This document shows, one piece after another, positions 26,953 through 62,760 of a stretch of DNA of 64,000 nucleotides. Source of the DNA: Acidihalobacter ferrooxydans (GTDB lineage: Bacteria > Pseudomonadota > Gammaproteobacteria > DSM-5130 > Acidihalobacteraceae). Both the position numbers and the translations under genes were made by a program. Location: contig NZ_CP019434.1 of the NCBI RefSeq assembly GCF_001975725.1, positions 3,126,792 through 3,190,791 on the forward strand, read 5' to 3'. Each line of letters starts with the position of its first letter. Position 1 is the stretch's first letter. The notes beneath the pieces were generated by a model. That model saw only the letters and a list, made by a program, of their open reading frames with translations. It did no database searches and was not told the DNA's origin.

Positions 26953-27075
26953 CCATTCCACAGACTCGGACGTCCCCGCGCGGGTGTAGTTTCCTGACCC
27001 GCGCGAATGCGTACCTGCCTGTGCCGGCAGACACCCGGCAACGAAACCACAACGGTCATTCTTACGGAGGAGAAC

Positions 27076-28350
27076 ATGCGTCACTTTCGCATCAAGCACC
27101 TGGCAGGTGCGGTCGCCCTGTCCTGCGCGTTCGTCGCGGGCAATGTCATGGCCGAACCGACGGTCAGCGTACTCAACTGGTGGACATCCGGTTCCGAATC
27201 CAAGGCCATGGGCGTGCTGCAGGAAATGCTCGGCAAGGAAGGCATCAAGATGGTCAACGATGCAGTCGCCGGTGGCGGCGGCGCCAATGCCCGCACCATT
27301 CTGAAATCCCGCATCGTATCCGGCAACGTGCCGGGTGCCGCCCAGATCAAAGGCGTCAGCATCCAGCAGTGGGGCCGCACCGGCCTGCTCGGCAACGTCA
27401 ACGCAGTGGCCGAATCGCAGCACTGGAACAAATTGCTCGATCCGGTCTTTCTGAAACTGCTCAAATACAACGGCAACTATGTCGCGGTGCCGTTCGATAA
27501 TCACCGCGTCAACTGGATGTGGATGAACCCCGAACTGATGAAAAAGGCCGGCGTCGCACACATGCCGACCACTTGGGACGAACTCGTCAGCGCGCTGAAG
27601 AAATTCAAGGCAGCGGGCATCACCCCGATCGCCGGCGGCGGCAACACCTGGCAGGTCGCGACCGAGTTCGGCCCCGTCGTTCTGGCTACGGGCGGTCCGA
27701 AGTTCTATGACGATGCCTTCGTCAAACTCGACACCAAGGCGCTCAACAGCCCGACCATGATCAAGGCCTTCAAACGGCTGCGCGTGCTCCAGAAGTACAC
27801 CGACCCGAACGGCGTCGGTCGCTCCTGGAACCACGACACGGCGATGGTCGCCAACGGTCAGGCCGCGATGCAGTTCATGGGCGACTGGGCCGAAGGTACG
27901 CTGATGGTCATGCACAAGACCCCGGGCAAAGACGTGCTCTGCGCACCCTTCCCCGGCACCAACGGCAGCTTCATCTACAACGTGGACACCATGGTGTTCT
28001 TCAAGCAGGGCAACGCGGAGGCGCGCAAGGCGCAGGACGCGATGGCCAAGACCGTCATGTCGGAAAAGTTCCAGATCCTGTTCAACAAGGTCAAGGGTTC
28101 GATCCCGGCCCGCCTGCACACGCCGATGAGCAGTTTCAACAGCTGCGCACAGACCTCGGCGAAAGACTTCGCGCAGGCCTCGAAGAACCACGCGCTGGTG
28201 CCCAGCATGTCGCAGAACATGTCGACCTACAACGCCACCACCGGCGCCATCTTCGACGTGCTCGGCCAGTTCTACAACTCCAACATGAGCGCGCAGACCG
28301 CCGCCGATCAGCTTGCGAAGCAGGTTGCCGTGGCCAAGTCGCAACTCTGA
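27076..28350 (+). CDS. gtsA: Sugar ABC transporter, periplasmic binding protein (GtsA-like)
   Basis: 424 aa. Signal peptide ending AGNVMA-EP (about residue 26), then VSVLNWWTSGSESKAMGVLQ and VAGGGGANARTILKSR, which closely follow the glucose-binding GtsA proteins of Pseudomonas. DNHRVNWMWMNPELMKKAG and MQFMGDWAEGT are further family matches. It delivers a sugar, probably glucose or mannose, to the permeases encoded downstream. GGAGG lies 6 bases before the ATG. The gene is separated from gtsB by 263 bp that contain a MITE (28369-28529). Confidence 0.88.
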   Translation: MRHFRIKHLAGAVALSCAFVAGNVMAEPTVSVLNWWTSGSESKAMGVLQEMLGKEGIKMVNDAVAGGGGANARTILKSRIVSGNVPGAAQIKGVSIQQWGRTGLLGNVNAVAESQHWNKLLDPVFLKLLKYNGNYVAVPFDNHRVNWMWMNPELMKKAGVAHMPTTWDELVSALKKFKAAGITPIAGGGNTWQVATEFGPVVLATGGPKFYDDAFVKLDTKALNSPTMIKAFKRLRVLQKYTDPNGVGRSWNHDTAMVANGQAAMQFMGDWAEGTLMVMHKTPGKDVLCAPFPGTNGSFIYNVDTMVFFKQGNAEARKAQDAMAKTVMSEKFQILFNKVKGSIPARLHTPMSSFNSCAQTSAKDFAQASKNHALVPSMSQNMSTYNATTGAIFDVLGQFYNSNMSAQTAADQLAKQVAVAKSQL

Positions 28351-28368
28351 CCGAAGCCCTCATCCTAG

Positions 28369-28529
28369 GAGCCTGTCGGACTTGGAGGATCGTAGCGAGG
28401 CGAGTGGGGAATGGAGGCCAGTTTCACGGTCTTTTGAGGACAATAGTGGTTCTATTCGACGAAAAAGAGCGTGGAAATGGGCCCATTATCCCATCGCCGC
28501 AGCCGATTCTTTCCAAGTCTAACAGGCTC
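28369..28529. mobile_element. Family C MITE (C1, 161 bp) with CTAG target duplication
   Basis: Terminal inverted repeats GAGCCTGTCGGACTTGGA (left) and TCCAAGTCTAACAGGCTC (right; two mismatches), flanked by CTAG at 28365-28368 and 28530-28533. No coding capacity. It has the same length as the copy at 52362-52522. It lies inside the gtsA-gtsB gap, so it would be transcribed with the operon. Confidence 0.85.
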
Positions 28530-28613
28530 CTAGGCCCGTTCTGGCCCGGCAACTTGTAGGAATGTGACCTCGCTCCGGCGCTGTCGCGTCCCCGTCCTGT
28601 AGGAGATATTTTC

Positions 28614-29525
28614 ATGAGCGCGGCGTATGAAGACGCGTCCCGGTCCGGTATCGGGAATCGACTGCAACGGCTGCTGCCGAAACTGGTGCTCAGCCCGACT
28701 TTCCTGGCGGCCGTATTTTTCCTTTATGGTTTCATCGTGTGGACGATCTGGCTGTCGTTGACGCGCTCCACGCTGCTGCCCTCGAACACCTGGGCCGGGC
28801 TCGCGCAATACCGCTACCTGTTCGACAACGGCATCTGGTGGACCTCGTTGATCAATCTGGGCATTTTCGGCGTGCTGTATATCGGTCTGTCGATGGCGAT
28901 CGGGCTGTTTCTGGCGATCCTGCTCGACCAGCGTATCCGCGGCGAGGCGATCTTCCGCGTGGTTTATCTCTACCCGATGGCGCTCTCGCTGATCGTCACT
29001 GGCGTGGCCTGGAAATGGATGCTCAACCCGGGCCTCGGCGTGCAGCAACTGGTCCGCGACCTCGGCTTCACGCACTTCAGCTTCAACTGGCTGATCAACC
29101 CGCAAATGGCGATCTACACCCTGGTCATCGCCGCCGTGTGGCAATCTTCCGGTTTCGTCATGGCGCTGTTTCTCGCCGGGTTGCGCGGCGTGGACGATGC
29201 CGTCATCAAGGCGGCGATGATCGACGGCGCCAGCCTGCCACGCATTTACTGGAGCGTCGTCATTCCCAGTCTGCGACCCACCTTCTTCAGCGCGCTGATC
29301 CTGCTCACCGGACTGGCCATCAAGAGCTTCGATCTGATCATGGCCATGACCGGCGGCGGCCCCGGCTTCGCCACCTATCTGCCGGCCAATTTCATGTACG
29401 ACTTCGCCTTCCAGCGAGGCCAGATTGCCATGGGTGCGGCCAGCGCCGTGATGATGCTGATTGCCGTCGGCCTGCTCGTCGGTCCGTTCATCCTGCTCGA
29501 ATCACGGAGAAAGAGCGATGTCTGA
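28614..29525 (+). CDS. gtsB: Sugar ABC transporter permease (GtsB/MalF type)
   Basis: 303 aa with six membrane segments. The EAA loop that contacts the ATPase is AAMIDGASLPRIYWSVVIPS (about 203-222). It forms the membrane channel with the next gene product. GGAG lies 8-9 bases upstream of the ATG. Its 3' end overlaps the start of gtsC by 8 bases. Confidence 0.88.
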   Translation: MSAAYEDASRSGIGNRLQRLLPKLVLSPTFLAAVFFLYGFIVWTIWLSLTRSTLLPSNTWAGLAQYRYLFDNGIWWTSLINLGIFGVLYIGLSMAIGLFLAILLDQRIRGEAIFRVVYLYPMALSLIVTGVAWKWMLNPGLGVQQLVRDLGFTHFSFNWLINPQMAIYTLVIAAVWQSSGFVMALFLAGLRGVDDAVIKAAMIDGASLPRIYWSVVIPSLRPTFFSALILLTGLAIKSFDLIMAMTGGGPGFATYLPANFMYDFAFQRGQIAMGAASAVMMLIAVGLLVGPFILLESRRKSDV

Positions 29526-38792: not shown

Positions 38793-38957
38793 AGAAGCCC
38801 GTCGAACTTGGTAAAAAGAGGCTGCAGCGCTGGGATAATGGGCCAATTTCTCTGTCCTTTTTCGTCGAATAGAACCACTATTGTCCTCAAAAGCACGGAA
38901 AACTGCCCTCCATTCCCCAGTCGTCTCGCCACAATCCACCAAACCCGGCAGGTTCAT
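38793..38957. repeat. Family C repeat, diverged copy (C3) inside the pil operon
   Basis: Reverse-oriented and clearly diverged relative of C1: AGAAGCCCGTCGAACTTGG at the left, a middle TTTTTCGTCGAATAGAACCA with ATTGTCCTCAAAAG, and GGCAGGTTCATGG at the right. No clean CTAG flanks remain. It lies between pilJ and chpA, so the operon transcript must pass through this 165-nt imperfect inverted repeat. Confidence 0.7.
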
Positions 38958-52218: not shown

Positions 52219-52542
52219 CCCGAATGTTGCACAACGACCGCCGATCTCGCGGGTCTCTTGATTCCACAAGGGATACTTCCTCAGTCGACCGTCATCACCG
52301 ATACGCCGCTCCTTCTGAAATCCCCTTGTGAAAACGCTATCCGGCGCGATACCAGCACTAGGAGCCTGTCGGACTTGGAGGATCGAAGCGAGGCGAGTGG
52401 GGAATGGAGACCAGTTTCTCGCTCTTTTGAGGACAATAGTGGTTCTATTCTTCGAAAAAGAGCGGGGAAATGGACCCATTATCCCATCGCCGCAGCCGAT
52501 TCTTTCCAAGTCCGACAGGCTCCTAGTCATGAAACATTCGGG
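52219..52542. mobile_element. Family A element (A7) carrying a nested family C MITE
   Basis: Ends CCCGAATGTTGCACAACG and CATGAAACATTCGGG. Removing the C2 insert and one CTAG leaves 159 bp that align without a gap to A4 and A5 across the site (AGCA-CTAG-TCATGAAAC against AGCA-CTTG-TTATGAAAC). The rest of the 52060-52741 gap shows only a small direct repeat (GATCCAATGAC/CTATCCAATGAC) before the permease gene. Confidence 0.85.
52362..52522. mobile_element. Family C MITE (C2, 161 bp) with CTAG duplication, inside A7
   Basis: Terminal inverted repeats GAGCCTGTCGGACTTGGA and TCCAAGTCCGACAGGCTC are perfect, flanked by CTAG (52358-52361 and 52523-52526). It differs from C1 at only a few positions over 161 bp, which suggests recent movement. 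Confidence 0.9.
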
Positions 52543-56004: not shown

Positions 56005-56100
56005 GAGCCTATCGGACCTGGAAAGAATCGGCTGCGGCGATGGGTTAATGGAGGCCAGTTCCCACTCGCCTCGCTTCGATCCTCCAGGTCCGGCAGGCTC
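56005..56100. repeat. Family C short subtype (C5, 96 bp)
   Basis: Reverse-oriented copy with both inverted ends (GAGCCTATCGGACCTGG and CCAGGTCCGGCAGGCTC) and a 65-bp internal deletion. The same 96-bp form occurs at 62665-62760, so the short form has spread by itself. Confidence 0.8.
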
Positions 56101-58224: not shown

Positions 58225-58342
58225 GAAGCCTGTCGGATCTGGAGAATCGTGGCGAGGCGAGTAAGGAATGGATGTCACGACCGGAAAGTGGCCCGATCAT
58301 CCCATTAGCGCAGTCAATTCTTGCCCAGGGAGACAGGCTTCC
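58225..58342. repeat. Family C repeat, internally deleted (C7)
   Basis: Ends GAAGCCTGTCGGATCTGGA and GGGAGACAGGCTTCC remain as an inverted pair, and the middle is shortened to about 118 bp. Lies between the rhodanese and the SDR-like gene. Confidence 0.7.
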
Positions 58343-62664: not shown

Positions 62665-62760
62665 GAGCCTGCCGGATATGGAAAGAATCGGTGGCGACGA
62701 TGGGATCATGGCCCCATCCCCCACTCGCTTCGCCACGATCCTCCACGTACGTCAGGTTTA
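62665..62760. repeat. Family C short subtype (C8, 96 bp)
   Basis: The same 96-bp form as C5: GAGCCTGCCGGATATGGAAA at the left, CCACTCGCTTCGCCACGATC in the right half and a worn right end (GTCAGGTTTA). Lies between the divergent FAH and PsiE genes. Confidence 0.75.

Follow-up and report, generated by a model that had tools for sequence, protein, structure and literature searches.

The window, a 64,000-nucleotide stretch of the 3.45 Mb single-contig genome of Acidihalobacter ferrooxydans, contained several copies of a short non-coding element, here termed family C. The copy designated C2 was a 161-bp MITE with perfect 18-bp terminal inverted repeats, both of which read GAGCCTGTCGGACTTGGA going inward, and it lay inside a copy of a second repeat, family A. 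In C2 the motif CGAAGCGAG/CGTAGCGAG of the 5' arm defined the forward strand, and the element folded into an end-to-end hairpin. Coordinates and ends, as given in the initial annotation, agreed with a direct reading of the sequence; the features of the site were as follows, with bit scores from the covariance model R1 described below.

52219-52542, + strand: family A element interrupted by C2; 159 bp once C2 and one CTAG are removed, with ATAA flanks
52358-52361, no strand: left-hand CTAG of the 4-bp target duplication (sequence; conserved flank stops there in 99 copies)
52362-52522, + strand: C2, 161-bp non-coding MITE (sequence; R1 154.9 bits; RNA fold -97.4 kcal/mol, z -12.1)
52362-52379, + strand: left terminal inverted repeat of C2, GAGCCTGTCGGACTTGGA (sequence)
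52505-52522, - strand: right terminal inverted repeat of C2, a perfect match to the left (sequence)
52523-52526, no strand: right-hand CTAG of the 4-bp target duplication (sequence; conserved flank stops there in 99 copies)

Deleting C2 together with one CTAG restored the family A host to 159 bp with ATAA on both flanks, as had been proposed; the accompanying claim of a gap-free alignment to other A copies held only approximately, since these range from 158 to 161 bp. Uninterrupted A copies at two loci (L243 and L244) carried a single CTAG at the equivalent place and represent empty sites. Three further C elements (L128, L231 and L030) occupied the identical position in A, with decayed, CTAG-like flanks; at L030 one A arm was matched at the set threshold and the other merely resembled A. 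The nested C insertions at one A site and the empty A copies with a single CTAG support an order in which A inserted first and C later at all four places, as read from the sequence. Empty sites came from these nested A insertions alone. Among relatives from the genus and family, one genome (G001) had C copies and no flank orthologous to that of the window copy C1, and three others (G002-G004) gave no match, so the comparison with relatives that had been suggested yielded no empty site. A copies that seemed to be interrupted at base 141 were mostly alignment ends.

Family A had 40 matches in the genome, flanked elsewhere by TTAG, TTAA and similar tetramers, and its ends were IS1380-like. Two IS1380-family elements occurred in the genome, at 1619900-1620586 and 3194777-3195463 (L065 and L066), with ends CCCGGATATTTCACAA, CTAG on both sides and a transposase matching NF033539 (402.8 bits). 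Family A, whose ends are similar, is probably the MITE of these IS1380 elements.

The other C copies in the window were as follows.

28369-28529, + strand: C1, 161-bp copy (sequence; R1 144.7 bits), with CTAG at 28365-28368 and 28530-28533
38795-38955, - strand: third full-length copy, 161 bp, diverged (R1 94.9 bits)
56005-56100, - strand: shortened copy, 96 bp (R1 70.8 bits)
58226-58340, + strand: degraded copy (R1 23.8 bits, E 0.003)
62665-62759, - strand: shortened copy, 95 bp, weak (R1 30.8 bits, E 1e-4)

C1 had the length of C2 and CTAG on both sides, as first described, and two mismatches in its right end. It was situated between genes for an ABC-transporter binding protein (27007-28350, +) and a permease (28614-29525, +).

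A search of the whole genome returned 41 strong BLAST matches to C, while the 18-bp end, allowing up to two mismatches, was present at about 200 places; a reversed control had zero occurrences. At least 99 distinct copies had both ends and unique outer flanks, and the lengths of these 99 clustered around two values, 157-161 bp and 95-97 bp. The shorter class, some 20 of the 99 copies (e.g., L053 and L059), is a recurrent form that lacks the middle and perhaps constitutes a second mobile subfamily. Outside the ends of the 99 copies, positions 1-4 on either side showed conserved C, T/C, A/G and G. Conservation stopped exactly 4 nt beyond each end; conserved outer sequence without CTAG, which the initial annotation had named as the sign of a misplaced boundary, did not appear.

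CTAG stood on both flanks in 21 of the 99 copies and was the most frequent flank on both sides, the remaining copies having mostly CCAG on the left or CTGG on the right. Within the window CTAG occurred 19 times, compared with about 218 expected from base composition, and chance is excluded by 99 copies with unique flanks of which 21 have CTAG on both sides despite this scarcity. Retention of CTAG rose with closeness to the C consensus (Spearman 0.38, p 0.002), and flanks other than CTAG would be products of decay after insertion. The asymmetry between CCAG on the left and CTGG on the right is compatible with T having changed to C within CTAGG, the outcome expected of very-short-patch repair. 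The nested sites and the flanks of the 99 copies bore out that family C is mobile, with the boundaries proposed and a 4-bp duplication of CTAG, and that C2 had inserted into A. Short and non-coding, with 18-bp terminal inverted repeats and 99 dispersed copies, C has the properties of a MITE, and its target-site duplication is seen in the nested insertions, the single-CTAG A sites and the 4-nt limit of conservation.

The hairpin was analyzed in an alignment of C2 with elements from 20 other genomes (n = 21), placed in a single orientation set by sequence motif. RNAalifold returned one end-to-end irregular hairpin, in which 36 of 60 pairs had changed on both sides. On this hairpin 95.7% of cells were paired, compared with 35.8-50.2% when the structure was slid by 1-3 columns, and none of 500 shuffles reached any of the pairing measures; the structure was derived from the same 21-element alignment, so that one of these controls leans toward it. 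The bases of the internal loops (GUA, GA/GCA, GA/GA) were conserved at 95-100%, compared with 79% in the stems outside the terminal repeats and 60% in the apical loop. In 20 of the 21 elements the motif-defined forward strand gave the more stable RNA fold of the two strands; the mean difference was 13.3 kcal/mol. Searches of Rfam with C2 and six relatives gave no match at gathering level.

A second set was obtained by running R1 on 398 genomes of the phylum (E <= 1e-4). Matches were found in 48 genomes, 41 of them outside the class of the window and mostly in one family. All 29 R1 loci that were read measured 158-161 bp; CTAG flanked 15 of them at both ends, and across the 29 pairwise identity averaged 62% with a minimum of 44%. 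In all 29 the forward strand was the more stable and the motif-based orientation agreed, and their paired columns contained 138 G-U against 23 A-C combinations; R1 carries the structure, so these loci are not structure-independent, the strand comparison lying outside the search criteria. The copies are related by descent, and their counts are of non-independent events. Altogether, C relatives of 157-161 bp, with CTAG flanks among them, were present in gammaproteobacteria and in another class, and all folded as the one end-to-end irregular hairpin.

In our view selection acts, or has acted, on a folded single strand, RNA or ssDNA, because symmetry of the double strand or homogenization of the arms would neither favor one strand nor keep mismatched loops. 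RNA and ssDNA are inseparable on these data since G-T is tolerated in DNA too. Tentatively, C may belong to a phylum-wide superfamily of mobile elements of about 160 nt whose folded single strand works in the life cycle of the element, one defined strand (RNA or ssDNA) carrying conserved tandem G-A internal loops; we put this joint reading at somewhat below even.

Arm homogenization in palindromic mobile DNA is a known general process and can proceed without selection. Quasi-palindrome correction, by template switching or cruciform repair, could in this way have kept the arms complementary and generated the covariation with no selection on a folded strand. Such correction should erase mismatched internal loops, yet among inner positions conservation is highest there; it should also treat both strands alike, whereas one particular strand gave the more stable fold in 20/21 and 29/29 elements, and the excess of G-U over A-C mismatches in the newly found set likewise speaks against it. 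We regard it as rather unlikely. A hairpin kept for the host instead of for transposition, e.g., to let RNase III process transcripts or to attenuate them, would suit the strong RNA folding (z -12) and the position of C1 within a transporter operon in forward orientation. The copies in this genome are nevertheless scattered and decaying, and orientation relative to neighboring ORFs was not clearly biased (19 ++, 14 +-, 13 --, 7 -+, by a crude method). With no clear orientation bias, a role for the element itself is mildly favored, and the host role is unlikely.

The ends of C led to a transposase family. A scan for TAGGAGCCTGTCGGACTTA with at most one mismatch gave matches in 57 of 369 gammaproteobacterial genomes and zero control matches in the genomes listed. 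The C-type end pairs found were mostly about 160 bp apart. In one genome (G345) they stood 1559 bp apart, as CTAG-GAGCCTGTCGGACTT and AAGTCCGACAGGCTC-CTAG, and enclosed an intact gene whose 452-aa product is an IS1182-family transposase (374.8 bits to NF033551, cut-off 270). The ends of C matched those of the G345 element at 15 of 15 nt, with near matches in four further genomes (G309, G095, G154 and G140) and in plasmids. The IS1182 elements of G309, G095, G154 and G140 (three loci) had similar ends and CTAG flanks. C-type ends with CTAG also occurred on plasmid copies annotated as IS1182 family or ISAzo2 (Aromatoleum, Pseudomonas) and on unannotated copies from Mesorhizobium and Polaromonas plasmids. 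Complete IS1182 elements with CTAG on both sides were L188-L192, L197, L200, L277-L280 and L283.

By eye, C and the G345 element shared their ends and were little alike in the interior, and derivation of the C body by internal deletion from any IS1182 element read was not obvious. The plasmid collection gave no match to the C sequence and one partial match when a C relative was used as query. A plasmid of Pseudomonas sp. MPC6 (NZ_CP034782.1, L282) carried, between CTAG flanks, a relative whose body was C-like but whose ends differed (GAGGCTGTCCGAG), adjoining a C-type end; this suggests that element bodies may pair with different ends.

An intact insertion sequence combining C ends with CTAG, for which a search had been proposed, was thus found in other proteobacteria and not in the present genome: no intact IS1182 transposase with C ends was found here, and IS1182 was represented by decayed fragments alone. 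One decayed IS1182 gene began 70 bp after CTAG-CAGCTTGTCGGACTTGGT, a C-type end, and may be the fossil of a former mobilizer. Since decayed fragments are all that is left, the C family in the present genome is probably stranded. Pairs of C ends with long spacing in this genome (e.g., 2503160-2504353) were considered as an autonomous element and proved to be two short C copies with no transposase.

The ends and the CTAG target shared with IS1182 elements point to mobilization in trans: C is very probably a MITE moved by an ISAzo2-like IS1182 transposase. C itself encodes no transposase. An IS1182-family DDE transposase of the ISAzo2-like subgroup, supplied by elements that share the terminal repeats (G/C)AGCCTGTCGGACTT, would recognize the C ends, cut the element out at these ends and join them to palindromic CTAG, with duplication of its 4 bp. 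The body has been held at about 160 bp, one strand folding into the irregular hairpin that covaries across genera, and that folded strand, as RNA or ssDNA, would matter to the element.

The initial annotation had favored an IS5/IS427-type transposase. The IS5 group prefers YTAR targets, with which a 4-bp CTAG duplication is compatible, and an IS5-family remnant adjoins a C element at L062, the sole IS5-type remnant recognized among the DDE_Tnp_1 matches. That remnant is frame-shifted and apparently has other ends (GGACGCGCTGATTTATT), and the searches turned up no IS5 element bearing C ends, against at least seven such IS1182 elements. The proposal therefore gave way to IS1182, and an IS5/IS427-type mobilizer is now highly improbable. 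Profile searches of this genome with DDE_Tnp_1 (IS4/IS5/IS1380-type) and DDE_3 (IS630) returned no element with C ends. Other transposase genes matching DDE_Tnp_1 (L061, L063, L067 and L068) were present in this genome, none with C ends. Equally improbable is movement by an IS630 (Tc1/mariner-type) transposase at the TA within CTAG, duplicating TA alone: the IS630 element ISPsy32 uses CTAG (PMC8027508) and IS630-type genes exist in this genome, but none of the IS630 loci read here carried its own C ends (those matched close to L079 were part of a neighboring C copy), and matched CCAG/CCAG (four copies) and CTAA/CTAA flanks are hard to explain by duplication of TA. Because the IS1380 copies here and ISPsy32 also use CTAG, the tetramer is not diagnostic of a transposase family, and the partner transposase is identified by the ends instead of by the target. 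The likely mobilizer is accordingly corrected from IS5 to IS1182, with CTAG alone a poor guide.

MITEs are usually viewed as passive double-stranded DNA with ends. Across many families, C relatives have stayed constant in length and retained an irregular hairpin, its internal loops near-invariant, at identities down to 44%. If the superfamily reading is true, a MITE mobilized by a DDE transposase would also be a structured-RNA or ssDNA element. The dependence of such a MITE on a folded single strand becomes testable, and the covariance model finds such elements across Pseudomonadota.

A search of the open-licence literature for the C end sequences returned an unrelated match only; several described systems share other properties with C. 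IS1272 of Staphylococcus belongs to the same transposase family, IS1182, and uses palindromic targets; it is reported to replace an inverted-repeat target without duplication (PMC5678879), whereas C duplicates CTAG. ISPsy36, also of the IS1182 family, has a 4-bp palindromic target repeat as C does, but the tetramer is GGCC and the element is autonomous (PMC8027508, PMC6053426). ISAzo2 and its relatives, again IS1182, share with C the ends CAGCCTGTCGG(A/G)CTT and CTAG on both sides; unlike C they are autonomous, with their own transposase and a different interior. MITEPye1 of Paracoccus yeei is 159 bp long and has no ORF, 18-bp IS1182-like terminal repeats and 4-bp direct repeats (PMC11578231). 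It resembles C in approximate length, 18-bp ends, 4-bp repeats and a long stem-loop, a likeness drawn from its published description, and differs in being alphaproteobacterial with 1-3 copies per chromosome; the available portions of that report mention no phylum-wide spread, covariation or strand asymmetry, which C displays (PMC11578231). Within the open-licence literature, and as far as those portions describe it, MITEPye1 appears to be the closest published case and, by analogy, a precedent for C.
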